23,142 bases of DNA from the IMG/VR virus record IMGVR_UViG_3300034520_000242, positions 1-23,142 of that record. One strand, 5' to 3'. The notes beneath the pieces are model-generated. The model ran no database searches. It saw only the letters and a program-made list of their open reading frames with translations, and was not told where the DNA came from. Source of the stretch: a virus. Of this stretch, positions 446 through 22,340 are shown one piece after another. The translations under genes were made by a program, and so were the position numbers. Position 1 is the first letter of the stretch; the number at the start of each line of letters is the position of its first letter.

Positions 446-3400
446 CTAATCAGCATATTTCTTAAAGTTTTCTGCTTGTTCCATTACTTGCTCAAAAACT
501 TCTTCGTCCCACTCAGGTGGATAACCGTTTTCGTATAAAAGAACGGTTAAGTCCATATTAAGCTGATTTTTAATATCATCTCGGGTTGACCAGTCTGCAT
601 ATTGGGCCTTATCATCTACAAGCTCTTTAATTTTTTTAGCAAGTATAAGGCACTTTTCATCCTCATACTTAAACTGATGCTCATCTCGTACTTTAATTAA
701 GATATCAAAGAAAGCCTTTTCTTCAAAAGAAATGCCAAGTTTCTCAAAAGAAGACTTATCATCCTGCAGATCTTGTAAAATTCTAATGAGCTCATTAGAA
801 AGTCCATTGATAAATTCTTCAACAACCTCACTCGTAAACACGAGTTTGTCTCTATTGTTATAACTTTCAACTACTTTTTTCAGTCTTTCATCAAATGCAA
901 TAGCCTTAACTTTGTTTGTTTTTCCATAACTTGATATGGCTTTTCTCAAAAGCTTTAGTAATGCATTGAACTTAGAAATTGGCAGATTAATAGCATCTAA
1001 CTGCTTTTGAAATTCTTCGCTAAACATATCTATAGACTTATTAGCATTGATAATATTTTCAACACCTGTACAGGTAATTGCATCCTGCACCATCTTTTCA
1101 ACTACACGATTCATAGTTTCAGCGTCGGGAGCATTGCCCTTTGTTTGCTTGTATATTATTGAACGAATAGCAAGATAGAATTGTGCCTTAGTTACTTCTT
1201 CATCGGTTAACTCACCAGACGGAAAACAGATTTCATAGGCTGCCTTTAGTTTGCGAGATAAATCCATAAAACGTGTCTCAAGCTCTTTGCTTAACTGTAC
1301 AAACTCTGCTGCTTCATTTAAACAAACCAGTCTTTCAAGCGGTGTACCAGAGTAGAATTTATCAGCATTAAATCCATGTAAAATACCGTCAATTAAGGAT
1401 AAGTGATTACGGAAAACGGAAAGCGATATCTTTATTTCATCGACAGGGCTTTCTTGAGGGCCACCATATACTTTTATGGCCTCGAGCATATCTTCTTTAA
1501 TGCCAATATAATCTACTACCAAGCCTTTATCTTTGCCTTCAAACACACGATTTACACGAGAAATTGTTTGGATCAAAGTATGTTTTTGAATGGGCTTATC
1601 AATGTACATCACCGAAAGTGACGGAACATCAAATCCGGTAATCCACATATCAACGACAATGGCAATCTTAAAGTTTGAGTCATTGTTTTTAAACTGCTTG
1701 TCAAGCTTTGCTCTATACTCTTTGTTGCCACAGAGGTCAAATAGTTCCTTTTCATCATTATCACCTTGTGTCGCAACAAGTTTAATCTTTTCAAGCGGAA
1801 TTAATTTATCAAGCTTTTCTTCGGTTAAAAGCGATTCATCTTCTGCTTTTTTAGGAATATTCCAGTCAGGACGCAGGGCAATAATCTCTTTATATAGGCT
1901 GAATGCAAGCTTTCTATCAGCACAAACAATCATTGCTTTTTGAACTATGGCAGGCTTCTCATTACACAAAGCCTCATAATGATTAACTATATCTGCTGCT
2001 AATCTCTTTAAACGATCCGGGTGACCAAGAAGTTGACGCATTTTGCTCATAGCTCGTTTGCTTTCTTCAACTTGCTCAGGATTAGCACCATTATTAGTAC
2101 ATTTATCGTAATAGGCTTGAATTTCTTTTGCTTGCTCTTCAGATAAAATTACCCTTGCAAGGCGGGGCTCATAAGCGATGCGTACCGTAATACCGTCATC
2201 GCTAGATTCTTTCATTGTATAGCTATCGACCACATCACCAAATACTGCTAAAGTCTCATCTATCGGAGTTCCGGTAAAACCACAATAGGTTGCATTTGGG
2301 AAGGAATCCCTTAAGTACTTGGCAAAACCAAATGTTGTGGTAATACCTTTTTCGGTGATTTTTAGCTTTGAGCCAGTGTTAGTCTGAGTTCTGTGTGCTT
2401 CGTCAGAAATACAAATTATGTTATTTCGATCGGAGATAAGTCCCGTTGACTCACAAAACTTTTGAATGGTTGTTATATATACACCACCGCTAACAGCGCT
2501 GCCTAAAGCCTCCTTTAAATCTTTTCGGCTTTCAATGCTACGAACATTTTTATCGTGTAAATAGCGCTTTGATACTTCGAATAATTCGGATGTTTGAGTG
2601 TCTAAATCCTCACGGTCTGTAATTATGACAATTGTAGGATTTTTAAATGTCTCCCGCTCTCTTAAAGCCAACATTCTGGAAAGGAACAGCATAGTGTAAG
2701 TTTTTCCACAACCTGTTGCGCCGAAATATGTGCCGCCTTTACCGTCACCATGCGGTCTAAGGTGTTTCTTAATATTTGCAAGCATTTTATTTGCAGCAAA
2801 GAACTGAGGATAGCGGGAAATAATTGCAAGGTCTCCCTTGCTCTCATCAGGGTAATAAACGAAATCACGTAAAATGGCTGTAACTCTATCAATAGCAAAA
2901 GCGCCTTTTATCATCGTAAACAATGAACTAATACCATTAGATACTTTTTCGTCATCGTTTGCCTTATTCCATGAATAGTAGTATTCATAAGGTGTAAAAA
3001 TACTTGCAAGTTTATTATTTGCACCATCTGATATAACTGATAAAAAGCAGTATTTCATAAGTTTAGGAATATCACGACAATACCTTTTGTGAATTTGCTC
3101 CCATGCATCATAGATAGTTGTATCTTCTTTTATTGCAGACTTAAACTCAAAAATTGCAATAGGTATACCGTTTATAAATAATAGCAAATCAGGACGACGT
3201 AAACGGCTGCCTTGAACGGAAAGCTGGTTTACAACCTTATAGCTGTTATTGGATGTATTTTCAAAGTCAATGTAATTCACATGAAGAGCTATTTTAGTAG
3301 GGTCGTCACGTTGAAGATCAAAACCTTCATTAATAAGCCAAAAAGCCTCTCTATTTCCTTGATACAAAGGTTCGGAGGGTACTAGCTTAATGTGGCTTAT

Positions 3401-3610
3401 TATCTTCCCAATCTCACTTTCAGTTAATGATGCATTTGCATATTTTTTATTAAGATATGCCTTTAAATCGTCTTCAAGTAAAACATCTTCAAACCGTCTG
3501 TGTAAGGTATCGCCATGCACATAGGTATAACCTTGCGCAACAAAAAGCTCTATGATGGATTTTTCCAGTTGTTCTTCGGTGAATTGTCCGGTTAAAAAGC
3601 TTAAATCCAT
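446..3610 (-). CDS. hsdR: Type I restriction enzyme subunit R (HsdR): ATP-dependent translocase-endonuclease
   Basis: 1054 residues, normal full length for HsdR. An N-terminal PD-(D/E)XK nuclease is visible with D141, E155 and K157 (E-F-K). The SF2 translocase motor follows: Walker A GATGCGKT at 297-304, DEAH at 403-406, TGTP at 446-449, a motif V-like segment (DMWITGFDVPSL) around 654-665, and motif VI QTISRVNR at 681-688. The C-terminal third is helical and should contact the methylase core. In this family HsdR joins the M2S complex, pulls in DNA from an unmethylated site using ATP, and cuts at a distance. The ATG has GGAGG ten bases upstream. The gene starts 21 bases after the hsdS stop and is followed by the GIY-YIG gene. 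No frameshift or missing catalytic residue is seen, so it appears intact. Confidence 0.97.
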   Translation of the reverse strand: MDLSFLTGQFTEEQLEKSIIELFVAQGYTYVHGDTLHRRFEDVLLEDDLKAYLNKKYANASLTESEIGKIISHIKLVPSEPLYQGNREAFWLINEGFDLQRDDPTKIALHVNYIDFENTSNNSYKVVNQLSVQGSRLRRPDLLLFINGIPIAIFEFKSAIKEDTTIYDAWEQIHKRYCRDIPKLMKYCFLSVISDGANNKLASIFTPYEYYYSWNKANDDEKVSNGISSLFTMIKGAFAIDRVTAILRDFVYYPDESKGDLAIISRYPQFFAANKMLANIKKHLRPHGDGKGGTYFGATGCGKTYTMLFLSRMLALRERETFKNPTIVIITDREDLDTQTSELFEVSKRYLHDKNVRSIESRKDLKEALGSAVSGGVYITTIQKFCESTGLISDRNNIICISDEAHRTQTNTGSKLKITEKGITTTFGFAKYLRDSFPNATYCGFTGTPIDETLAVFGDVVDSYTMKESSDDGITVRIAYEPRLARVILSEEQAKEIQAYYDKCTNNGANPEQVEESKRAMSKMRQLLGHPDRLKRLAADIVNHYEALCNEKPAIVQKAMIVCADRKLAFSLYKEIIALRPDWNIPKKAEDESLLTEEKLDKLIPLEKIKLVATQGDNDEKELFDLCGNKEYRAKLDKQFKNNDSNFKIAIVVDMWITGFDVPSLSVMYIDKPIQKHTLIQTISRVNRVFEGKDKGLVVDYIGIKEDMLEAIKVYGGPQESPVDEIKISLSVFRNHLSLIDGILHGFNADKFYSGTPLERLVCLNEAAEFVQLSKELETRFMDLSRKLKAAYEICFPSGELTDEEVTKAQFYLAIRSIIYKQTKGNAPDAETMNRVVEKMVQDAITCTGVENIINANKSIDMFSEEFQKQLDAINLPISKFNALLKLLRKAISSYGKTNKVKAIAFDERLKKVVESYNNRDKLVFTSEVVEEFINGLSNELIRILQDLQDDKSSFEKLGISFEEKAFFDILIKVRDEHQFKYEDEKCLILAKKIKELVDDKAQYADWSTRDDIKNQLNMDLTVLLYENGYPPEWDEEVFEQVMEQAENFKKYAD

Positions 3611-3631
3611 ATCTTTCTTACCTCCGTTCTT

Positions 3632-4753
3632 TTAGGTTTTTGCTGCTTCCTCCAAAGAGCCTTTTATGAGTATAGGGCATATATTTTTTGACAAATCGCT
3701 TAATTTTGAGATATTACTCTTAATCAAATATATTGAATTATAGAAGCTAACCACTGCTTCTTGCTCCTCAAGGCTTGGTAATGGTATTTCAATCTCATAG
3801 AATCTGCTTAATTCTAAACTTGCTCGAATACTACTATCGCTGATAAACCATCCATATCTATCACTTTCGGATCTTGAAAACCATAACATTATATACTCCG
3901 CTAAGACATCATCTGTTTTTGTTTGTAAAACGGAATAGGCTGGTGAGATAATAGCAGGTTCTTCTTCGTGGAATAAGGCAATTCTTATGCATTCATCTCT
4001 ACCTGTCTGCATAGCACTATATGCAAATTGATTTTTCTGAATGATTTTATACTTTGTCAGATCAGTTGAACTTAGATTAGCAACTGATGGTATAAATGTT
4101 TTTTCAATATTTATACCTTGAACATTACTGATTTTTCCATCGCTGTTTCGTATATCTACATCTTCTAGCAATTTTCCAACAGCAACTCTCTTACATTTAT
4201 GCTTGAATTGTTCCAAAGATATAACAATAAGTTTATTTAAGTCCTCAAGCCCTTTTTCATAAACCTTTTGATTTTCTTGCATGGATTTATATATATCTAC
4301 ATATTTCTGCTGTGTCTCAATGGACGGCAAATCAATTTCGATATCACACATATCATCCCAAGAGAAAGTTTCACGAGCGGAACCCCAAGAATTAAACCTT
4401 GCATACCTGTCAAATTCAGGACGGTTAAAATACATATAAAGATAGTCCGAAAGTAGTTCTTCAGTATTAGATACTCTAAAGATTGTAGAAATTGAAGAAA
4501 CTAATAAGTTTTTATTTGTCTTATTATAAGCAAGAGACATTTTATCGCCTCTTCTTGATGTGTCTGCAACAAATGCAAAACAATGTGGTGGTACTATTTT
4601 GTATGATGCCAGATTAACTCCTTCTAAATCTGCTTTTGTGGGAATAAACTCTTTTTGTGTAGAAATTCCAACAACAGCATCCTTACCAAGAGCATTATCT
4701 TTGTTTCTTAAATCTAAAAGTTCAATATAATTACCTAATTTATTCAATCGCAT
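3632..4753 (-). CDS. hsdS: Type I restriction-modification specificity subunit S (HsdS)
   Basis: 373 residues when started at the ATG at 4751-4753, which has AAGGGG seven bases upstream. An in-frame ATG nine codons earlier lacks such a site. The gene overlaps the end of hsdM by 14 bases, a common sign of translational coupling. The protein is visibly two homologous halves. Each starts with a target recognition domain (residues about 26-145 and 212-325), marked by the repeated pattern GI..(Q/E)K.FIP..A.L, then YKI. Each half ends in a conserved spacer helix, near LPSIETQQ (142-149) and LPSLEEQE (325-332). HsdS reads a bipartite DNA target and bridges two HsdM subunits. The recognised sequence cannot be read from the protein alone. 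No second hsdS copy or inverted repeats for shuffling are seen in the window. Confidence 0.93.
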   Translation of the reverse strand: MRLNKLGNYIELLDLRNKDNALGKDAVVGISTQKEFIPTKADLEGVNLASYKIVPPHCFAFVADTSRRGDKMSLAYNKTNKNLLVSSISTIFRVSNTEELLSDYLYMYFNRPEFDRYARFNSWGSARETFSWDDMCDIEIDLPSIETQQKYVDIYKSMQENQKVYEKGLEDLNKLIVISLEQFKHKCKRVAVGKLLEDVDIRNSDGKISNVQGINIEKTFIPSVANLSSTDLTKYKIIQKNQFAYSAMQTGRDECIRIALFHEEEPAIISPAYSVLQTKTDDVLAEYIMLWFSRSESDRYGWFISDSSIRASLELSRFYEIEIPLPSLEEQEAVVSFYNSIYLIKSNISKLSDLSKNICPILIKGSLEEAAKT

Positions 4754-6308
4754 AACCAATCCCCTTAAAGGCAGCTTCAATCATGGCTTGAGATTTTTTT
4801 CCTGCCTGTAAAATCTCTTTCATTTCCTGTTGAATGCGTGCCATTTCTTTTTCATAATCTATTTCTAGATCATGGTCAATAAACTCAATATATTTACTTG
4901 GGGCAAGAGAATAATCCTGTGCACGAATATCTTCAACAGTTGCTGATTTACAAAGTTCTGGAACATCGGAGTAATTCACTCCTGTCTGCCAGTTATTATA
5001 AATTTGTTTGATTTCCGAAATCTGCTCATCATTAAACATTACATATTTTTTTTCATAAACATTTTGATTCCATCTGCGAAGATCCATAAATAATATTTCA
5101 TTTTGTCTATCTCTAAGTTCACGACCATTTAAGCTTCGGGCTTTTTTATTATTGTTGATAATCCAAAGAGTGACCGATATATCTGTGGAATAAAACATAT
5201 CTCGTGGTAGTACAATAATAGCTTCCACTTTATCATTTTCGATTAGCTGTTTTCGAATTTTGTATTCGTCACCATCAGCATTAAGAGCTCCGTTGGCTAG
5301 TAAAAATCCTGCAATACCATTCGTTGTATCAAGCTTCGAGAGCATGTGTAAAATCCATGCATAGTTTGCATTTGATACAGGGGGAACTCCGTAACCCTTC
5401 CATCGATAATCGTCAGTAAGCTCATTTGCTCCACGCCATTTTTTTAGATTAAATGGGGGATTTGCCATTATGAAATCAACTTTATCATCTTTATGCTGAT
5501 CATCAAGAAAAGTAGAAGTTGCAATATCCCCTAGATCATAAGAGATTCCACGGATGGCAAGGTTCATTTTTGCCAATCGCCATGTATCTGGGTTTGATTC
5601 TTGACCAATCACTGAAATTTTCAACCTATTTCCATTATGTCTCTCAACAAACTTTACGGACTGAACAAACATACCGCCTGAACCGCAGCAGGGGTCATAC
5701 ACGCGACCACTGTAAGGTTCTATAAGCTCTGCAATTAGTTTTACAATGCTAGCAGGGGTGTAAAACTCTCCTTTTTCTGCACCAGTGCCAGAGTCGATAG
5801 CGAATAGTTGTAGAAAATATTCATAGACTCTACCGATTAGGTCCTTATCTTCAAACTTTTTTTCATCAATTTTATTTATTTCATCTATTAAGCCTTTAAG
5901 AGCTGATCCTCTGACATTAGAAGTAGCATAAAAGTTTTGAGGCAAAGCACCTTTAAGAGAAGAGTTTGCTTCTTCAATATCAGCCATTGCTTTGTCTAAA
6001 ATCACTGCAATCTCATCGGAGCTTGCATTCTTAACAATGTACGACCATCTTGACGTCTCATTTAAATAAAACACATTTTCTGAAAGATAAAATGATGGTT
6101 TCTCAAGGAATGCAGGGATATCTCCATACTTTTCTTGGATTTCTTTTCTTCTTTTTTCAAATTTATCTCCAGCAAATTTTAAGAAAACAAGCCCCATAAC
6201 AGCGTCGCGATTTTTTTCATTACTTCCTATAGTCCCTCTGAGAGCGTTTCGACAGTTCATTAATATTGTTTCAAGACTTATTTCTTGTTTTGTATTTTTT
6301 TTAGCCAT
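4740..6308 (-). CDS. hsdM: Type I restriction-modification DNA methyltransferase subunit (HsdM)
   Basis: 522 residues from the ATG at 6306-6308, which has a GAGG site eight bases upstream. An in-frame ATG seven codons earlier has no ribosome site. The N-terminal HsdM helical domain (about 8-150) precedes the N6-adenine methyltransferase domain. SAM-binding motif I is DPCCGSGGM at 205-213 and catalytic motif IV is NPPF at 283-286. The C-terminal region (about 470-522) is charged and helical, as expected for contact with HsdS. In this family the protein methylates adenine in both halves of the HsdS target and so protects the carrier DNA. The gene lies 29 bases downstream of the HTH gene and overlaps hsdS by 14 bases. 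All key residues are present, so it should be active. Confidence 0.96.
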   Translation of the reverse strand: MAKKNTKQEISLETILMNCRNALRGTIGSNEKNRDAVMGLVFLKFAGDKFEKRRKEIQEKYGDIPAFLEKPSFYLSENVFYLNETSRWSYIVKNASSDEIAVILDKAMADIEEANSSLKGALPQNFYATSNVRGSALKGLIDEINKIDEKKFEDKDLIGRVYEYFLQLFAIDSGTGAEKGEFYTPASIVKLIAELIEPYSGRVYDPCCGSGGMFVQSVKFVERHNGNRLKISVIGQESNPDTWRLAKMNLAIRGISYDLGDIATSTFLDDQHKDDKVDFIMANPPFNLKKWRGANELTDDYRWKGYGVPPVSNANYAWILHMLSKLDTTNGIAGFLLANGALNADGDEYKIRKQLIENDKVEAIIVLPRDMFYSTDISVTLWIINNNKKARSLNGRELRDRQNEILFMDLRRWNQNVYEKKYVMFNDEQISEIKQIYNNWQTGVNYSDVPELCKSATVEDIRAQDYSLAPSKYIEFIDHDLEIDYEKEMARIQQEMKEILQAGKKSQAMIEAAFKGIGYAIE

Positions 6309-6337
6309 GTAAATAACCTCACTTGTCATATATGTTA

Positions 6338-6550
6338 TTAAACATCATCTGAATCATTTTTCTCAGCTGCGCCGCCTGAACGAATCCATTCATCAACTTC
6401 GGAAATTTTAAATTTCCAGAGCCGTCCTACCTTATGGGCAGGCATGTTGCGATTGTTTATCCACTGCAATACAGTTTCACGGCTTACACCCAGATAATCT
6501 GTAATAGTGTCCATAGAAGACCATTTTTCAATATTTTGATCTTTGCTCAT
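6338..6550 (-). CDS. Excisionase-like winged HTH DNA-binding protein, putative operon regulator
   Basis: 70 residues from the ATG at 6548-6550, which has GGAGG eight bases upstream; a start five codons earlier would place this site inside the coding region. Residues about 10-58 form a MerR/excisionase-type helix-turn-helix: a YLGVSRETVLQWI recognition segment (19-31), then the typical VGRLWKFKISEVDEWI wing and helix (41-56). Such proteins bind DNA as small accessory or regulatory factors. It lies between the ABC-3C ATPase gene (18-base gap) and hsdM (29-base gap), so it may act as a controller that delays or tunes restriction expression. It is too isolated from any recombinase to be called a true excisionase here. 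The fold is clear and the role is inference. Confidence 0.8.
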   Translation of the reverse strand: MSKDQNIEKWSSMDTITDYLGVSRETVLQWINNRNMPAHKVGRLWKFKISEVDEWIRSGGAAEKNDSDDV

Positions 6551-6568
6551 TAAACAAGCCTCCATTTC

Positions 6569-8347
6569 TTATTGGCGAACGCCATTCAAGAATCCGTAAC
6601 GTCCACATGATTCATCTTTAGTAAACCGAATCACATTTGCTTCGCTATAATCTAAATCAGGAATATCATTTTCAACAATAATTACTTGCCCATGGGCTTG
6701 GTTGTCTAATAGGTATTGAAATAACGCAGCCTTCATTGTGTCAGATGCCACACCATCTCCTTTTTCTTTCAGAGAAAGAATAGGGGAGTCGATAATCAAT
6801 AGCTCGGGTGCGTATTTACCCTTATCGTATAGATACTCCATAAGAGAAATAGCAAGTACCGTATTTAAGAAAGCACGATATCCTTTACCATATGTGTTTT
6901 TAGGAGTTCCATTAATAATAATGTCAAAGGAACTTGGATCTAAATAAGCTGAACTATATGCATCAAATTTACATGATTCAAGTACTCTGTTTAGATAGCT
7001 GTCCAATGTAGCTATGATGTCGCGACTAAAGTAGTTCTTAATTTTGAACTCTACCTCTGATTCTTCTTCTATCATTGCTTCAAATAATTCAGATTTCATT
7101 GTTGTTTCATATTTACTAATAACCACTGATTCATTACGTATTTCAATGGCTCTTCGATAATCATATAAAGTTGCTTTAAGCGCAGCAATTTTTGGCTTTA
7201 ATTCATCCTTTATAAGTAATTCAACATCTGATTTTTCACTATTTAACGTAGCAAGTTTAGATTCAAGTACTGACCGTTCCTTTATCAGATCTTGCTCAGC
7301 TTCCACTAAATCATCTAATTGAAGTTGAATCCTATGGAGCTCAGCGTGTGATGCCTCTGCATAAGTAGCTTCTTTTTGTAAAGAAGGTATACTGCTGTCA
7401 CAGAACGGGCATTTAGAATTTGGATGCATATTTCTTTTATGCAGCTCACCCTCAACAATAAAAGTCAATCTTTTAATATCAGATGCATATTGACTCTTCA
7501 AAGCTTGGTACCGGTTATACAGAGTATTGCATTCAGCCAATTGTTCGCTGACAACATAAATTTCTTTTAAAAGTTGTTTGCTTCGGTTGACAAAATCAGT
7601 TATTTTTGCTTCTGTTTCGGCGATTTCAGCAAGTACATTCTCTACTTTCTCTTGAAGGTACTCTTCATCTCCGACTGGAAGTTTGTTCAGTTCATTTTTA
7701 CGTTCAGCAAAATCAGATAATCTTTTGTTAATGTAATCAACAACAGCCTTTTTTCGAGCTTCTTTTATCTTTTTTTCTTCCTTTGGATCGGAGTCAGCAA
7801 AATCTTGACCGGTAATCAAAAAGAAGAGGGCAGAAAGAGCAGCAGTATGTGCGGTATTTTGCTTTGGTAACAGTATAGAAGGCTCTTGAAAAACAACGGA
7901 TTCCTTAATGAGAAACATGTGTGAGAAAGTTCTCCAGGTAAGACGCTGTTTATCATACCTTGAGTTTTTGATAATAAAATGCTCCTCGTCAATACCTATA
8001 AGCCTTAACCATACATCACTGATATTCTTTTTTCCGCTAGTTCTATAGTCTCCAGACTCAATCCTGTGATCGTTACTATGAACTTTGATTTTATTAGAAT
8101 CTATCTCGCGATCAAATGTAATGCTACCATTATCTGTATCAACAATTATTTTGATATTATTGTAGCCTGTCTTCCTATCAAAACGAATATTATCACTGCC
8201 AAATAAGTAGTCGATACATTCTAAGATATAACTTTTTCCGGTATTTGATGGACCGCAGATAATATTTAATCCTTCATCAAATTCTAAAACTGAGGGTTCA
8301 TTGCCATTACCGGAAACAATCAGCTTTTTTATATAAAAGTTAGGCAT
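6569..8347 (-). CDS. ABC-3C system ATPase, SMC/Rad50-like (DUF3732-type)
   Basis: 592 residues. Walker A GPSNTGKS is at 32-39. A long coiled-coil-rich middle (about 190-400) is interrupted by a zinc-hook-like CPFC at 313-316. The second half has an ABC-signature-like stretch YGKGYRAF (486-493) and a Walker B LLIIDSP (516-522). This is the architecture of Rad50/SMC-related ABC ATPases, and the match to DUF3732 is by recalled similarity. In ABC-3C conflict systems such an ATPase is encoded with a middle component and a variable C-terminal-domain protein and is proposed to sense invading nucleic acid or its processing. The start ATG has AGGAGG nine bases upstream; the gap to the middle-component gene is four bases. 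The protein looks intact. The family call is good; mechanism and trigger are unknown. Confidence 0.85.
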   Translation of the reverse strand: MPNFYIKKLIVSGNGNEPSVLEFDEGLNIICGPSNTGKSYILECIDYLFGSDNIRFDRKTGYNNIKIIVDTDNGSITFDREIDSNKIKVHSNDHRIESGDYRTSGKKNISDVWLRLIGIDEEHFIIKNSRYDKQRLTWRTFSHMFLIKESVVFQEPSILLPKQNTAHTAALSALFFLITGQDFADSDPKEEKKIKEARKKAVVDYINKRLSDFAERKNELNKLPVGDEEYLQEKVENVLAEIAETEAKITDFVNRSKQLLKEIYVVSEQLAECNTLYNRYQALKSQYASDIKRLTFIVEGELHKRNMHPNSKCPFCDSSIPSLQKEATYAEASHAELHRIQLQLDDLVEAEQDLIKERSVLESKLATLNSEKSDVELLIKDELKPKIAALKATLYDYRRAIEIRNESVVISKYETTMKSELFEAMIEEESEVEFKIKNYFSRDIIATLDSYLNRVLESCKFDAYSSAYLDPSSFDIIINGTPKNTYGKGYRAFLNTVLAISLMEYLYDKGKYAPELLIIDSPILSLKEKGDGVASDTMKAALFQYLLDNQAHGQVIIVENDIPDLDYSEANVIRFTKDESCGRYGFLNGVRQ

Positions 8348-8351
8348 TTCA

Positions 8352-8801
8352 TTAATCCTCCTGTAGCGAATATATGGAGCGTCTATTTATAAAATTTAAA
8401 ATCTTACGCTCGGTTTTATTAGATATGAATTCCCGCGCCAAGCTCACAGCTCGACGGTATGCGGTCGCATAATCACTTGATAAATATTCGCTATAATTCA
8501 ACCCTTTTTGGTTAGCGCAATATGTAAAACCTTTTTCAGTTGAGTTTACTTTTATAAGGTCATCAACCACCAGTTGTTTAATTGCCTTTGTTATGAGTTC
8601 GCGACGTAAGGTGAACTCACTGAATTTATAGTTATTATCCCCATGTAGGTTTTCGTCAGAAATACCAAATTCTCTTCCGTAAATTGAAATAAAATCTATT
8701 GCAGCAAGCATGTCTGCACTAAAACTTTGATTTCTTGAAGTCTCTAGTATAAGCAAAATACGTAGGGATGCTTCAAATGGTGTATTATATAATTTACTCA
8801 T
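8352..8801 (-). CDS. ABC-3C system middle component
   Basis: 149 residues from the ATG at 8799-8801. This start overlaps the stop of the preceding gene by eight bases (ATGAGTAA) and has a G-rich AGGGGGTGGG site upstream; an upstream in-frame ATG would force a long overlap. The protein begins MSKLYNTPFEASLRILLIL, an opening I recognise from middle components of ABC-three-component systems. It is predicted to be alpha-helical with winged-helix-like features: a helix rich region (about 10-75), then the ELITKAIKQLVVDDLIKV segment (68-85) that resembles a wing-containing DNA-binding or adaptor fold. It likely bridges the ATPase and the C-terminal-domain protein. The family assignment rests on similarity recalled from the sequence and on gene order. 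No catalytic residues are seen. Confidence 0.75.
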   Translation of the reverse strand: MSKLYNTPFEASLRILLILETSRNQSFSADMLAAIDFISIYGREFGISDENLHGDNNYKFSEFTLRRELITKAIKQLVVDDLIKVNSTEKGFTYCANQKGLNYSEYLSSDYATAYRRAVSLAREFISNKTERKILNFINRRSIYSLQED

Positions 8802-9810
8802 CGGTATCAACCCACCCCCTAAGTTTGCCGTCATTTACAAGTATGTGGCAAACACCTTTCTTTTCACTAGCACCAATCCAATTAGGAATTTGGCTATATA
8901 CGCATTTATCCACTCGAATAAGAGCGGCTTGAGACATAACCCCTTTTAATCTAGCGAGGCCGTGAGGATACTCGTTTTCATAAACGTCTATGATACCGTC
9001 GTATGTTTCTTCTTTTAATACATCAAACTGATCTGGGGTTGTTTCTCCAAATACATCTCTAGCACCGCGCCTAATACTTTCAGCAGCATAGTAGTCTTTT
9101 CTTCTACGCTTAAAATCTTTCGCGTACTTTGGAAAACTTTCTAATGATTCCTTTGGTAACTCATCAAGGCCCTCCGCATCAGCATAAGCGGCTAATAATT
9201 CTCTGACGTAAACCATCTCATGTGATTCGATTTGTCCGGGTGGAGTAATAAGAGCGGGCTGCTCTGGATGGATTTTTTCAATAAGCTCCTTTAGTTTTTT
9301 TACATCATTAAGAATAGAAGGCATTTTATTATTCAAGGGAGCTGGAGATTCCTTAGAAAGTTTGTTTTCCTTTTTTATTACATACAAAAACAAGACAGAC
9401 AAAAAAACATGAAGAGAGGACGGATTAGCAAATTGCAAGAACTCATCTTTTTTATCTTGCGGAACAGTATCGTCACTGGATATGAGTTCTGCTAATTCGG
9501 CAATCATGTCTTGTATCATTTCAGGCATAATTTCAGGCATGACCACATCCTCAAAGTAGTCATGTGCTGCATTAATTATTGTTTGGGAGCTAGATGCTTC
9601 CTTTATTTTTTTACGCATATTAATTTTGCAGTTAAATAAGTCACTGGCAAGTTTGTCAGTGACAACAAAAGGTTCACCTTCTTGGTTTGTAACATCCTCA
9701 TTGTCAGTAATTAGCCCTAGCAACAATTCAGCGACACGTTTTTGACCATTCGGTTCTTTAATTGATTTTTGAACAATTTTGGCATATGTCCCAAAGCATA
9801 ACCTACCCAT
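8794..9810 (-). CDS. ABC-3C system CTD protein / putative effector, first gene of the defence operon
   Basis: 338 residues from the ATG at 9808-9810, preceded by AAGGG nine bases upstream; two earlier in-frame ATGs are less well placed. The N-terminus MGRLCFGTYAKIVQ resembles ABC-3C proteins whose N-terminal half varies between systems. The C-terminal part (about 200-338: ELPKES, then charged KDFKRRRKDYYAAESIRRG, then a GLARLKGVMSQAALI helix and a final IPNWIG...WVDTDE) fits the conserved C-terminal module. I see no known nuclease, NADase or TIR motif. A hydrophobic stretch at 134-146 (VFLSVLFLYVI) is short for a membrane span and more likely a buried helix. The gene overlaps the middle component by eight bases and lies next to the TTTGACC repeats, so its promoter should be just upstream. 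The effector role is inferred from gene position only. Confidence 0.65.
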   Translation of the reverse strand: MGRLCFGTYAKIVQKSIKEPNGQKRVAELLLGLITDNEDVTNQEGEPFVVTDKLASDLFNCKINMRKKIKEASSSQTIINAAHDYFEDVVMPEIMPEMIQDMIAELAELISSDDTVPQDKKDEFLQFANPSSLHVFLSVLFLYVIKKENKLSKESPAPLNNKMPSILNDVKKLKELIEKIHPEQPALITPPGQIESHEMVYVRELLAAYADAEGLDELPKESLESFPKYAKDFKRRRKDYYAAESIRRGARDVFGETTPDQFDVLKEETYDGIIDVYENEYPHGLARLKGVMSQAALIRVDKCVYSQIPNWIGASEKKGVCHILVNDGKLRGWVDTDE

Positions 9811-9835
9811 AACAACCATCCCTTTCTGCAGAACC

Positions 9836-9868
9836 ATAAGGTCAAAAAAGGGTCAAAAACAGGTCAAA
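9836..9868. repeat. Three tandem 11-bp repeats (GGTCAAA / TTTGACC cores)
   Basis: Seven-base cores GGTCAAA occur at 9840-9846, 9851-9857 and 9862-9868, exactly 11 bases apart. Each is preceded by a four-base A-rich spacer, giving three full 11-bp units. On the minus strand they read TTTGACC followed by a variable NNNT and end about 25 bases before the defence operon start codon at 9810. The layout of heptamers with four-base spacers is a direct-repeat operator shape and is helically phased. It may bind an activator or repressor of the operon, or overlap its -35 region (TTGACC). The repeat itself is certain, its function is not known. Confidence 0.85.
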
Positions 9869-16102: not shown

Positions 16103-16522
16103 ATGGATAGATATAACGCTGAAGGCTATCCAGATCCAACTGCAGCAGAAGCCTTGGAAAATATCATGCGTGAAGAAAAAGCAAAAAACTATAAACCTTG
16201 CGTTTTTATTTGTTCTCCTTTTGCTGGAGACATAGAAAAAAATCTGAATAAAGCTAGAGAATACCTGAAGTTTGCAGTGAAGCAAGGAACCATTCCTTTT
16301 GCTCCTCATCTGCTATACCCTCAAGTGCTAGATGATGGCGATCCTGAACAAAGAAAACTAGGACTATACTTTGGCATGGTATGGCTTAGAAAGTGTGATG
16401 AGCTGTGGGTATTTGGTCGCTATATCTCAAAAGGGATGCAAGCAGAGATAAATAAAGCATCGAAGCATCGTATACCTATCCGGTATTTTTCTGAAAACTG
16501 CGAGGAGGTGCAGAAGCTATGA
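16103..16522 (+). CDS. DUF4406/DUF7768-like protein with nucleoside deoxyribosyltransferase-type fold
   Basis: 139 residues. The ATG has GAGGAG nine bases upstream. The core reads VFICSPFAG (33-41), then NLNKAREYLKFAVKQGTIPFAPHLLYPQVLDD (46-77), then CDELWVFG (about 99-106) and a final GMQAEINKASKHRIPIRYF. The ICSPFAG start, the PxAPHLLYPQ segment and the DELWVFG strand are the pattern of the nucleoside 2-deoxyribosyltransferase superfamily and of DUF4406-type phage proteins. Activity on a nucleotide or NAD-like substrate is possible but unproven; the usual catalytic glutamate may be the E in GMQAEI. It overlaps vapE by four bases (ATGA), so it belongs to the replication block. Confidence 0.75.
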   Translation: MDRYNAEGYPDPTAAEALENIMREEKAKNYKPCVFICSPFAGDIEKNLNKAREYLKFAVKQGTIPFAPHLLYPQVLDDGDPEQRKLGLYFGMVWLRKCDELWVFGRYISKGMQAEINKASKHRIPIRYFSENCEEVQKL

Positions 16523-18864
16523 AGATAGCGGTTGGTAACAGCCGAATGGATAAAAAGTGGAAGAACAAAGATATCACATGGGAGGACTTTATCTCACGAG
16601 TTAAATCTACCATACGAACAACAGAAACTGTATCTGAGTTCCGAAAAATGAGTCGCGCTCAACAGGACTCAATAAAAGACGTCGGTGGATTTGTGGGAGG
16701 AGCCCTTCGTGAAGGAAAACGCAGAAATGGTTATGTCCTCTCCCGTTCCCTTCTGACTTTAGATATGGATTATGCCAAACCAGAGGTTTGGGAGCAAATT
16801 GAAGCGTTACATGATTTCAAATGCTGCATCTATTCTACCCATAAACATACACCAGATGCACCAAGATTAAGACTTATTATTCCACTTAAAAGAGAAGTAA
16901 CAGAGGATGAATACCCAGCCCTTGGTCGGATGGTGGCAAAGGAGATTGGGATTGATTTATTCGATGACACCACTTATGAACCTTCAAGACTAATGTATTG
17001 GCCTTCTACACCGTCAGATGGTGAATTTGTGTTTAAAGAGAAAGACGGTGAACTATTAGACCCGGATGTTTATCTTTCAAAATATGTAGACTGGCGGGAT
17101 ACTTCCATGTGGCCTGTATCCACAAGACAATCAGAGGTTGTACAAAGGAAAATCACAAAGCAAGCAGATCCTTTAAGTAAAGAGGGTGTTGTCGGGGCAT
17201 TTTGCAGAGCTTATACCATTGAAGAAGCTATCAGCACATTTTTGGCGGATGTATATGAGCCAAGTGCTATGAATGGCAGGTTTGATTATATTCCAGCAGA
17301 TTCTTCAGCGGGCTTGGTGATCTATGACGGTAAATTTGCTTATAGCCATCATGCCACCGATCCGGCTTGCGGAATGCTGCTAAACGCTTTTGATTTGGTA
17401 CGAGTGCATAAGTTTCGCGACTTAGATGAAAAGGCTGCAGAAAATACAGCGTCAAGTAAACTGCCTTCGTTTAAAGCCATGACAGATTTGGCTTTGGAGG
17501 ATGAACGGGTAAAAGAGCAGTTTGCTGAAGAAAGAAAGGCTCAGGCTGAAAAAGAGTTTATTGATGAAGATTGGGAAAAGCAGCTGGAACTTGACAAGAC
17601 AGGATCAGTAAAAAATACCCTTAGAAACTTGATTTTAATACTCGAAAATGATCCAAACCTGAAAAGCATTGTATTTAATCAGCTATCAGACAGCCTTGAA
17701 ATTAAAGGTGATGTTCCTTGGCCGCATCCATCAAAGTTCTGGAGAGATGCAGACGATGCTCAGTTGATTAGTTACATCGACACCCATTACGGAACCTTCT
17801 CTGCAAGAAACTATGATGTGGCGGTAGCAAAGGTAGCTGACGACCGATCTTATCATCCAATTCGGGAGTTTATTGAAGCACTCCCTGAATGGGATAAGGT
17901 ACCGCGAGTAGATACCCTGCTCATCGATTATCTAGGTGCATCAGATAACCCTTATGTTCGGGCTGTGACAAGAAAAACTTTATGTGCGGCTATCTCTCGT
18001 GTACTGACTCCTGGCATCAAGTTTGATTCCATGTTGGTTTTAAATGGGCCACAGGGAGTTGGAAAAAGCACTCTCATTGCCAAGTTAGGTGGAGACTGGT
18101 TTTCAGATAGCTTGAACTTATCGGATACCAAGGACAAGACTGCGGCGGAAAAGCTTCAGGGTTACTGGATTTTAGAAATTGGTGAATTGGCCGGACTTAA
18201 AAAAGCTGCAGTCGAAACGCTTCGAAGTTTCTTGTCTCGCCAAAATGACATTTATAGAGCTAGTTTTGGCAGAAGAGCTACTCCCCACTTAAGACAATGT
18301 ATCTTTTTTGGTACCACCAATGCTGAGAAAGGCTATTTGAGGGATACCACAGGAAACCGTCGCTTCTGGCCGGTAAAGACTCCGGGAAATGGTACAAAAA
18401 AGTCTTGGCAGCTAAAGCAGGATGAAATTCTGCAGATATGGGCTGAGGCTCTTACCTATGTGAAAGCTGGAGAGAAATTGTACCTTGATGCCAGTCTTGA
18501 GAAGCTTGCAAAAGAAGAACAGCGGGAAGCTATGGAATCGGATGAGCGTGAAGGTTTGGTACGAGAGTACCTTGATATGCTTTTGCCTGAGGATTGGGAC
18601 AATATGGATTTATATGAACGCCGAGCCTATATCAACGGGACTGAGTTTGGTGAAAGTCAAAGGGTAGGTGTTTGGAAACGAAAATCGGTTTCTAATATGG
18701 AAATCTGGTGTGAGTGCTTTGGGAAGGATCGAGCCAATCTTCGACGAGTGGATGGCAATGAGATATCTGCAATTATGGCAAGTATCGGAGGCTGGACGGG
18801 ACTAGTGAGAAAAGAACGTATCCCGCTTTATGGACCACAATGGGTTTATGTTCCCAAAGCATAA
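16519..18864 (+). CDS. Primase-helicase: AEP/PrimPol-like N-terminus fused to VapE-type helicase
   Basis: 781 residues, about twice the length of a VapE domain alone. The N-terminal part (about 75-190) fits an archaeo-eukaryotic-type primase: LDMD at 81-84 (acidic pair D82, D84), STH at 106-108, and PSRLMYWPS (155-163). A linker with a small globular segment follows (about 215-300), then a charged helical stretch (320-360). The VapE ATPase (about 440-640) has Walker A GPQGVGKST (510-518), a Walker B-like WILEIGE (550-556), a sensor FFGTTN (596-601), and GNRRFWPV (612-619) with an arginine finger candidate. It most likely primes and unwinds the phage origin. AGGAGG lies ten bases before the ATG. 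The adjacent non-coding repeats support an origin-linked role. Confidence 0.88.
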   Translation: MKIAVGNSRMDKKWKNKDITWEDFISRVKSTIRTTETVSEFRKMSRAQQDSIKDVGGFVGGALREGKRRNGYVLSRSLLTLDMDYAKPEVWEQIEALHDFKCCIYSTHKHTPDAPRLRLIIPLKREVTEDEYPALGRMVAKEIGIDLFDDTTYEPSRLMYWPSTPSDGEFVFKEKDGELLDPDVYLSKYVDWRDTSMWPVSTRQSEVVQRKITKQADPLSKEGVVGAFCRAYTIEEAISTFLADVYEPSAMNGRFDYIPADSSAGLVIYDGKFAYSHHATDPACGMLLNAFDLVRVHKFRDLDEKAAENTASSKLPSFKAMTDLALEDERVKEQFAEERKAQAEKEFIDEDWEKQLELDKTGSVKNTLRNLILILENDPNLKSIVFNQLSDSLEIKGDVPWPHPSKFWRDADDAQLISYIDTHYGTFSARNYDVAVAKVADDRSYHPIREFIEALPEWDKVPRVDTLLIDYLGASDNPYVRAVTRKTLCAAISRVLTPGIKFDSMLVLNGPQGVGKSTLIAKLGGDWFSDSLNLSDTKDKTAAEKLQGYWILEIGELAGLKKAAVETLRSFLSRQNDIYRASFGRRATPHLRQCIFFGTTNAEKGYLRDTTGNRRFWPVKTPGNGTKKSWQLKQDEILQIWAEALTYVKAGEKLYLDASLEKLAKEEQREAMESDEREGLVREYLDMLLPEDWDNMDLYERRAYINGTEFGESQRVGVWKRKSVSNMEIWCECFGKDRANLRRVDGNEISAIMASIGGWTGLVRKERIPLYGPQWVYVPKA

Positions 18865-18869
18865 TTTAG

Positions 18870-19016
18870 TTTGGAACGTATGGAACAATTTTTCTTCAGG
18901 AACAGATTTCACCTGTTCCGGTGAAACAAAAACGGTCTTTTGGTACACCTCATTGGAACAGGCGGCAGCCCCTTGTAAAGTAGGCTACTTTATAACTTCT
19001 GTTCCATTGTTCCAAA
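18870..19016. repeat. GGAACA repeat cluster with inverted outer pairs
   Basis: GGAAC at 18873, 18882, 18899 and 18955 on the plus strand; GTTCC at 18915, 19001 and 19009, i.e. GGAAC on the minus strand. The outer pairs are each spaced eight to nine bases, start to start. By chance well under one such five-base motif would be expected in this length. Confidence 0.85.
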
Positions 19017-19073
19017 AATAATTATTAAAAGTAATCCTAAAGACAAAAAGAGGAAATTACCTGCAGACGCATA

Positions 19074-19087
19074 TATACGCGCGTATA
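19074..19087. promoter_or_regulatory. Perfect 14-bp palindrome TATACGCGCGTATA
   Basis: A perfect self-complementary sequence 34 bases upstream of the VRR-NUC start codon, in an otherwise AT-rich stretch. It could be a dimeric regulator site or part of the origin region. No matching second copy was seen. Confidence 0.6.
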
Positions 19088-19121
19088 GAGATTTTTTGGA
19101 TTTAGGGAACATGGAGGAACT

Positions 19122-19403
19122 ATGAGAGAAAAATGGATTGAACAACAACTGGTAAAAGCAGTGAAAGATATAGGCGGTATTGCGCTGAAGATTGTATCAT
19201 CAGGTTTAGATGGAATGCCAGACAGATTGATTCTTTTGCCGGGTAGGAAACTAGCTTTTGTGGAGGTGAAAGCTCCAGGTAAAGCCTTAAGGCCACTTCA
19301 AGAAAAGAGAAAAAGACAGTTAGAATCACTTGGTTTTTTGGTATTCTGCCTGGATCACATAGAACAGATTGGAGGGATACTTCGTGAAATACAAGCCTCA
19401 TGA
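19122..19403 (+). CDS. VRR-NUC domain nuclease (phage Holliday-junction/flap-type endonuclease)
   Basis: 93 residues, the normal size of a stand-alone phage VRR-NUC. PD-(D/E)XK residues are visible: E7, D34 in GMPDR (31-35), E48 and K50 in VEVK, and Q60 in RPLQEKRKRQ. The family includes FAN1-type and phage structure-specific nucleases that act on branched DNA. The GGAGG site is four bases before the ATG, a little close but acceptable. Its end overlaps the helicase gene by 20 bases, and this VRR-NUC/SNF2 pair is a recurring phage combination, so the two probably act together on replication or recombination intermediates. Confidence 0.9.
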   Translation: MREKWIEQQLVKAVKDIGGIALKIVSSGLDGMPDRLILLPGRKLAFVEVKAPGKALRPLQEKRKRQLESLGFLVFCLDHIEQIGGILREIQAS

Positions 19404-21293: not shown

Positions 21294-21316
21294 CTATGCC
21301 CAAATGGAGGTGCAAA

Positions 21317-21676
21317 ATGCCAAGGAAACCTAAACGACCATGTTCTTCTCCCGGTTGTCCTGAGCTGACTGATGGACGCTTTTGTCCTGATCATGCCAAA
21401 AAGGAAGCTTCACGATATGAAAAATATCAGCGAGATCCTGAAACGAGGAAGCGTTACGGGCGTGCGTGGAAAAGAATACGTGACCGTTACATTACAGCTC
21501 ATCCATTATGTGAAGAGTGCAAAAGAGAGGGAAAGCTGACACCAGCAGCTGAAGTCCATCACATCCTTCCTTTGTCTCGAGGAGGAACACACGATGAAAG
21601 CAACTTGATGGCTCTTTGTACTCCTTGTCACTCAGCCATCACAGCAAGAGATGGAGACCGTTGGCCATCCCGGTAG
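21317..21676 (+). CDS. Phage HNH endonuclease (packaging-associated)
   Basis: 119 residues from the ATG at 21317, with GGAGG six bases upstream; an in-frame ATG seven codons earlier is inside the terminator T-run region and lacks a site. An N-terminal zinc-binding group (C9, C14, C23, H26) is followed by an HNH nuclease: C65-x2-C68, H81-H82 (VHHILPLSRGG), N96, and C101-x2-C104-H105. In HK97-like phages an HNH protein beside the terminase genes is needed for cleavage at cos ends. Its position directly before the presumed cos region and the terminase small subunit gene fits that role. All metal ligands and the catalytic histidine are present. Confidence 0.9.
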   Translation: MPRKPKRPCSSPGCPELTDGRFCPDHAKKEASRYEKYQRDPETRKRYGRAWKRIRDRYITAHPLCEECKREGKLTPAAEVHHILPLSRGGTHDESNLMALCTPCHSAITARDGDRWPSR

Positions 21677-21788
21677 GGGGAGTCGAATCTCTACAGCTTT
21701 TTAAGCGGACAACGGGCGTGGGGCTTCGTGCAAAAAGTCGCAGTTTCAAACGGGGTAATACCCCCTTAATAAGAAATGAGGTGAGTTA
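21677..21788 (+). other. Candidate cos / packaging initiation region
   Basis: 112 non-coding bases between the HNH and terminase small subunit genes. It is GC-richer than its surroundings, with GGGGAGTCGAATCTCTACAG at the left, GGGCGTGGGGCTTCGTGC in the middle, and a GGGGT-AAT-ACCCC hairpin at 21752-21764. From memory, similar sequence occurs at the same place in many Firmicutes phages with HNH and P27 terminase genes, which points to a cohesive-end site. The nick positions cannot be set from this sequence alone. Confidence 0.45.
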
Positions 21789-22340
21789 ATGGCCAAAGAT
21801 GGTACAAATCGAGGTGGTGCCCGTATTGGATCTGGTCAGAAAAAGAAAGCACTTATAGATAAAATTGCTGAGGGAAATCCCGGAAAAAGAAAACTGGAAG
21901 TTATTGAATTTAAAAATACCGCAGAACTTCAAGGGCAGGAGATGCCACAGCCAAGGGCTATGCTTTCAGCAGTACAAAAGGATGGTAAAACCTTAGTAGC
22001 TAGCGAAATTTATGAGCTTACGTGGAAATGGCTTGAGGAGCGAGGGTGTGCACATCTAGTTCTACCACAGCTATTAGAAAGATATGCCATGAGTGCTGCT
22101 AGGTGGATACAGTGTGAGGAAGCAATAAGTGAGTTTGGTTTTCTTGCTAAGCATCCAACTACTGGCAACGCTATCCAAAGTCCATACGTTTCCATGAGCC
22201 ATAATTTTATGAGTCAAACCAACAGACTCTGGATGGAAATATATCAGATTGTTCGTGAAAACTGTGCGACAGAGTATTCCGGTACAAATCCACAGGATGA
22301 TGTGATGGAACGACTGTTGACTGCCCGTAGAGGCAAATAA
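21789..22340 (+). CDS. terS: Phage terminase small subunit, P27 family
   Basis: 183 residues. The ATG has GAGGTGAG a few bases upstream. The opening MAKDGTNRGGARIGSGQKKK and the early basic segment (14-35, including EGNPGKRKLEV) are typical of P27-type small subunits, whose N-terminus binds DNA. The central helical part (about 70-140: LTWKWLEERGCAHLVLPQLLERYAMSAARWIQCEEAI) and the C-terminal (146-183) helices are used in oligomer formation. The protein recognises the packaging site, here probably the region just upstream, and recruits the large subunit. In most relatives the large subunit gene follows directly, but here a SAM synthetase gene is interposed. The call is firm. Confidence 0.92.
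   Translation: MAKDGTNRGGARIGSGQKKKALIDKIAEGNPGKRKLEVIEFKNTAELQGQEMPQPRAMLSAVQKDGKTLVASEIYELTWKWLEERGCAHLVLPQLLERYAMSAARWIQCEEAISEFGFLAKHPTTGNAIQSPYVSMSHNFMSQTNRLWMEIYQIVRENCATEYSGTNPQDDVMERLLTARRGK

Follow-up and report, generated by a model that had tools for sequence, protein, structure and literature searches.

Here, we show that a conserved array of short repeats directly follows the vapE gene in a stretch of viral DNA of 23,142 nucleotides (hereafter, the window), and we conclude with good confidence that positions 18850-19120 are a phage replication origin whose short iterons would serve as binding sites for the winged helix at the C-terminus of the VapE protein encoded immediately upstream. 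A candidate phage replication origin beside the primase-helicase gene had been put forward in the original prediction, and it is now the best-supported explanation, given the arrays in 194 of 224 relatives and the covariation of the repeats with the VapE wing. The surroundings of vapE are a phage replication module. Upstream, on the plus strand, lie genes for a sigma-70 region 4-like protein (10470), DUF2800, an Enc34-type ssDNA-binding protein (SSB) and a family A DNA polymerase, followed by a BRO/KilAC antirepressor and DUF7768; downstream are VRR-NUC, an SNF2-like helicase, an ArpU-like regulator, HNH and the terminase small subunit (TerS).

Seven copies of GGAAC/GTTCC occur within 141 bases (18873-19013), starting at 18873(+), 18882(+), 18899(+), 18915(-), 18955(+), 19001(-) and 19009(-), in agreement with the predicted seven five-base copies in about 145 bases. 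The six-base GGAACA of the prediction's title occurs six times rather than seven and, although the seven copies had been placed correctly, three of the same set (18850, 19106 and 19116) had been overlooked. Further elements of the prediction were also borne out: the outer pairs are near-copies in opposite orientation (TGGAACGTATGGAACA and TGTTCCATTGTTCCA; 22-nt arms, 73% complementary), the central inverted repeat GGAACAG/CTGTTCC (18899-18919) lies between them, and the first of the seven copies, at 18873, directly follows the end of the primase-helicase gene vapE at 18864. Since the right-hand copies before the VRR-NUC start codon belong to the set, the array flanks both the AT-rich stretch and the near-palindrome (Table 1). 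This density is beyond chance: the intergenic region 18865-19121 holds 9 copies, against a mean of 0.55 and a maximum of 4 in 2000 dinucleotide shuffles. No 5-mer reached seven copies within 150 bp in any of 2000 dinucleotide shuffles of the intergenic region, and when the whole 12.7-kb phage half was shuffled, 3 of 200 shuffles did so. An ATG-initiated frame of 63 aa (18830-19021) spans the array, and the repeats might accordingly be a by-product of coding; we give this almost no credence, because the ORF has no family match and the change of the motif set is one of DNA, affecting both strands and crossing gene boundaries.

Table 1 Coordinates of the array, its parts and the flanking genes in the window.
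Feature	Position	Strand	Remarks
vapE	16519..18864	+	Predicted initiator: primase-like N-terminus, VapE AAA+ helicase, C-terminal winged helix
C-terminal winged helix codons, residues 724-781	18688..18861	+	AlphaFold model
Wing codons, residues 766-777	18814-18849	+	
Iteron copy GTTCC	18850..18854	-	Within the vapE 3' coding end (last codons)
Left outer iteron pair TGGAACGTATGGAACA	18872..18887	+	Cores at 18873 and 18882
Inner inverted iterons GGAACAG and CTGTTCC	18899..18919	.	GGAACAG at 18899; core of CTGTTCC at 18915
Iteron GGAAC	18955..18959	+	Followed by conserved GGCGGCAGCCCC stretch
Right outer iteron pair TGTTCCATTGTTCCA	19000..19014	-	Cores at 19001 and 19009; 8-bp spacing
AT-rich stretch	19014..19043	.	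Candidate unwinding element; 87% A+T over 30 bp
Class-independent near-palindrome CGCATATATACGCGCGTATAGAG	19068..19090	.	CGCGCGTATAG conserved across motif classes
Right-hand iterons GGAAC	19106..19120	+	Starts at 19106 and 19116; second overlaps the Shine-Dalgarno region of the VRR-NUC gene
VRR-NUC nuclease gene	19122..19403	+	Pfam VRR_NUC; conserved downstream neighbour

The vapE product matched the Pfam VapE-like family (E=2e-73) and PHROG 256 (DNA helicase), and the match of residues 1-406 to PHROG 9765 (DNA primase) led us to describe the N-terminus as primase-like. A profile of VapE matched PDB 7pds over residues 348-744 (E=5e-93), an entry entitled PriRep1 with dsDNA; we take this PriRep1 to come from a SaPI, SaPI1. 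The predicted VapE model (mean pLDDT 86) resembled the PriRep1 chain over its whole length (Foldseek E=2e-36, TMt 0.75, 34% identity). Modelled alone, residues 695-781 (87 residues) were predicted by AlphaFold to form a winged helix (mean pLDDT 90), and the VapE and PriRep1 C-terminal domains superposed with Z 8.8 and 2.2 A over 78 residues, whereas comparisons with other winged-helix proteins stayed under Z 5 and were uninformative. By sequence and predicted fold, VapE is thus homologous to PriRep1, a SaPI initiator.

Subsequently, we collected 224 unique vapE-gap pairs from viral contigs and species genomes and scored the 5-mers of each gap against the background of the locus itself. Relatives without the motif array had been named as grounds for abandoning the prediction; instead, 194 of the 224 carried a significant array in the same gap, and the 30 below threshold mostly had 3-4 GGAAC copies. 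With class labels taken from a fixed list of nine 5-mers, picked after the arrays had been seen, the 194 comprised GGAAC (152), GGACA (14), GCAAC (14), GGCAA (5), GGCAC (3), GTAAC (2), GAAAC (2), GTCAC (1) and GGAGC (1). From these significant-motif loci we drew 95 representatives that shared under 90% identity or differed in class. In 44 of the 61 GGAAC-class representatives, the class motif also appeared in the last vapE codons, and the commonest tandem spacing among relatives was 8 bp.

The motif changes as a whole set, and a tree built from VapE residues 1-660 implies about 20 changes of class. Aligning the window with six relatives (L048, L097, L027, L031, L030 and L114) revealed many sites in register with their bases switched: TGTTCCATTGTTCCA was replaced by TGTTACAAGTGTTACG, TGTGACTATTGTGACA or TGCTCCAATGCTCCA, and GGAAC at aligned positions became GTAAC in L027, GTCAC in L031 and GGAGC in L114. 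Directly repeated copies also switch in concert, and orientation patterns vary among relatives, both of which argue against the inverted copies acting, once transcribed behind vapE, as a structured attenuator or terminator RNA. The 257-nt transcript does fold better than its shuffles (z=-2.9), but this is due to the inverted copies, as with any inverted-repeat set. There was no Rfam match, a scan of 18700-19300 found no terminator-like site, and covariation with a protein wing is not expected of a structured RNA; we therefore judge this explanation very improbable. Separately, the array of L030 (7295-7625) mixes GGAAC, GTAAC and GTGAC and accompanies the VapE wing YGQQW; it is possibly an intermediate of a motif switch. 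After the fifth iteron of the window, conservation extends past the iteron itself (GGAACAGGCGGCAGCCCC, 18950-18975), and includes the GTAAC-class L027.

The layout around the repeats persisted as well. Of 70 arrays that could be measured, 60 had copies on both sides of the AT-rich peak; the peak occupies the corresponding position in relatives, where the median fraction of locus windows that were as AT-rich was 0.0007. The CGCGCGTATAG element, allowing at most 2 mismatches, was found after the AT-rich stretch in 61 of 95 representatives, drawn from different motif classes, compared with 1.9% of random 450-bp segments, and VRR-NUC was downstream of the array in 91 of the 95. The core pattern AACAGGCGNCAGCCCCT had 32 viral-contig matches, 25 of them with at least seven copies and all of these beside vapE and VRR-NUC; no array away from vapE was found among the 32, the remaining 7 being without an array (L486 by eye).

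Moreover, 58 of 70 relatives had a motif copy no more than 60 nt from the VRR-NUC start, upstream of or overlapping its ribosome-binding site, as would suit an operator through which VapE or another phage protein regulates the VRR-NUC/SNF2 operon with no origin function. We consider this unlikely, as no sigma-70-type promoter was found in 18700-19300, the majority of copies are far upstream and inside vapE, and an operator explains neither the AT-rich stretch that separates the sets nor the resemblance to SaPI/PICI origins. Autoregulation may act on top of origin function.

The same order of vapE, array, nuclease and helicase genes recurred in named phages from seven host genera, every array having a motif of its own: Listeria LWP01 (GTCAACA), Enterococcus phiFL4A (GGATAC), S. 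aureus vB_SauS_690 (TGCAACA), Corynebacterium StAB (GGAACAA), C. difficile phiCDKH02 (GTCAACA), Gardnerella AB1 (GACAAG/GTGACA) and Streptococcus Javan405 (GGCAAC). Erysipelothrix phi1605 had a weaker array. In phiCDKH02 (L467, 4160-4480), the gap after vapE is an unannotated 637 bp, and by eye an apparent unannotated VRR-NUC-like ORF follows the array.

A protein that reads the motif should diverge in its DNA-contacting part when the motif changes. We compared class difference with excess divergence over the tree of VapE residues 1-660, using 1000 class histories simulated on that tree under a null with a single rate, chosen to match the number of changes observed. Motif class tracked VapE residues 721-781 (z=3.6, 0 of 1000 simulations) and 661-720 (z=2.9, 1000 simulated histories). 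These first labels included 45 nt of coding sequence, and the covariation was rerun with labels from non-coding DNA only. Under the non-coding labels, the wing (residues 766-777) retained the signal (z=6.0, 0 of 2000 tree simulations), residues 721-765 no longer carried it (z=0.5), and neither the predicted recognition helix 743-756 (z=-1.0) nor two 12-residue VapE control segments (z 0.3-0.4) covaried. In a scan of the variable columns among the 781 of VapE, P773 (z=10.3) and Q774 (z=7.3) ranked first and second, and their codons were free of the class motif in 94 of 95 representatives. A second segment, VapE 661-690 (18499-18588), also tracked motif class (z=3.2); this signal, together with the lack of one at the recognition helix, counts against the proposed explanation.

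VRR-NUC flanks the array on the opposite side and hence serves as a control for plain linkage; motif class did not covary with it (z=0.5). Nor was there covariation with SNF2 (z=0.1), polA (-0.8), SSB (-0.3), HNH (0.4), DUF7768 or TerS (z=0.2, n=33). The HNH and TerS values bear on the idea of a packaging or cos/pac site read by terminase, to which the HNH and TerS genes at 21296-22340, with the small-subunit gene 2.7 kb downstream, lend some plausibility; as motif class follows neither protein and the arrays remain next to vapE, we regard such a site as highly unlikely. Among the proteins that the original prediction had listed as candidates, VapE is the likely binder of the array, since motif class covaries with its C-terminal wing.

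Residue 773 was P in 41 and K in 14 of 61 GGAAC-class representatives, R in 10 of 11 of the GGACA class and V or I in all 14 of the GCAAC and GGCAA classes; it was Q or V with GTAAC, Q with GTCAC, M with GGAGC and P in 3 of 3 with GGCAC. Wing and motif do not correspond one-to-one: L158 and L160 have identical wings and different motifs, and the wing YGRQR accompanies GGAACAA in Corynebacterium StAB and GTCAACA in Listeria LWP01. Residue 773 is thus not a universal code. As the wing codons adjoin the array, local recombination could also contribute to the association between wing and motif.

In the mechanism we propose for a VapE-bound origin, VapE would form an assembly on the outer iteron sets, open the AT-rich stretch that lies between these sets (19014-19043) and load itself to serve as replicative helicase; its N-terminus would supply primase activity, and the phage family A polymerase and SSB would complete the replisome. 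This mode of working would resemble that of SV40 large T antigen, an initiator helicase that assembles on several GAGGC pentamers beside an AT-rich stretch. We claim no membership in that group, as the origin-binding domain of large T is N-terminal and unrelated. The S. thermophilus Sfi21 origin lies downstream of a primase gene. In two complete relatives, the cumulative GC skew showed no turn at the array, a result that counts against an origin. A literature search, confined to a limited collection of papers, found none on VapE phage origins.

The closest counterparts are the rep-ori replicons of SaPIs and PICIs (PriRep1; Rep of SaPIbov1). The PICI origin directly follows the 3' end of the initiator gene and contains two iteron sets, one on either side of an AT-rich region; the authors describe this organisation as not shared by any other known bacterial replicon (PMC6092414). 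In SaPI/PICI origins, the iterons directly 3' of rep are recognised by the C-terminal domain (PMC6092414, PMC7581432). The window has a homologous initiator and two iteron sets flanking an AT-rich region, the latter also seen in the 60 of 70 relatives, and in the window and its relatives alike several short iterons lie immediately 3' of the initiator gene. Unlike SaPIs and PICIs, it is no satellite island but a tailed-phage module that encodes a polymerase, SSB and terminase of its own; it has the extra conserved CGCGCGTATAG element, its iterons extend to the VRR-NUC start, and its array shows concerted motif switches across close relatives. Because the anatomical features are present and, in place of the PICI satellite gene set, family A polymerase, SSB, SNF2, HNH and TerS are encoded, we infer a phage replicon that is built like the SaPI/PICI kind and would function like it, and not a PICI. 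In addition, the isolated C-terminal domain of the SCCmec Cch2 helicase binds 5-nt iterons (AAGTG) just downstream of its gene (PMC7581432). Cch2 and its putative origin share with the window an initiator-type helicase, downstream 5-nt iterons and a family A polymerase encoded nearby; in contrast, Cch2 belongs to the D5/Primase_Cterm group rather than to VapE, only three iterons were found there, and switching is not described. The best explanation, which we consider very probable, is a VapE-bound iteron origin of the SaPI/PICI type in a tailed phage.

With these results, origins of the SaPI/PICI kind would extend to the tailed phages of many Firmicutes and of some Actinobacteria. With all repeats changing in step with the putative DNA-reading loop of VapE, nature appears to have already run the specificity experiment, and the natural switches offer ready matched initiator-origin pairs for asking how specificity shifts jointly in an initiator and in all of its sites; they may also help to predict between which phages and satellites an origin can be shared or blocked. 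More tentatively, the wing might set iteron specificity, phages might fall into origin-compatibility groups, and set switches might represent escape from origin use or blockage by co-resident prophages or satellites. If the wing does set specificity, such groups should be legible largely from two or three residues. Beside the phage module of the window, a defence island on the minus strand (446-9837) encodes the type I restriction-modification proteins HsdR, HsdS and HsdM, an MAD1/excisionase-like HTH protein and a Lamassu-like set of LmuB, LmuC and LmuA.
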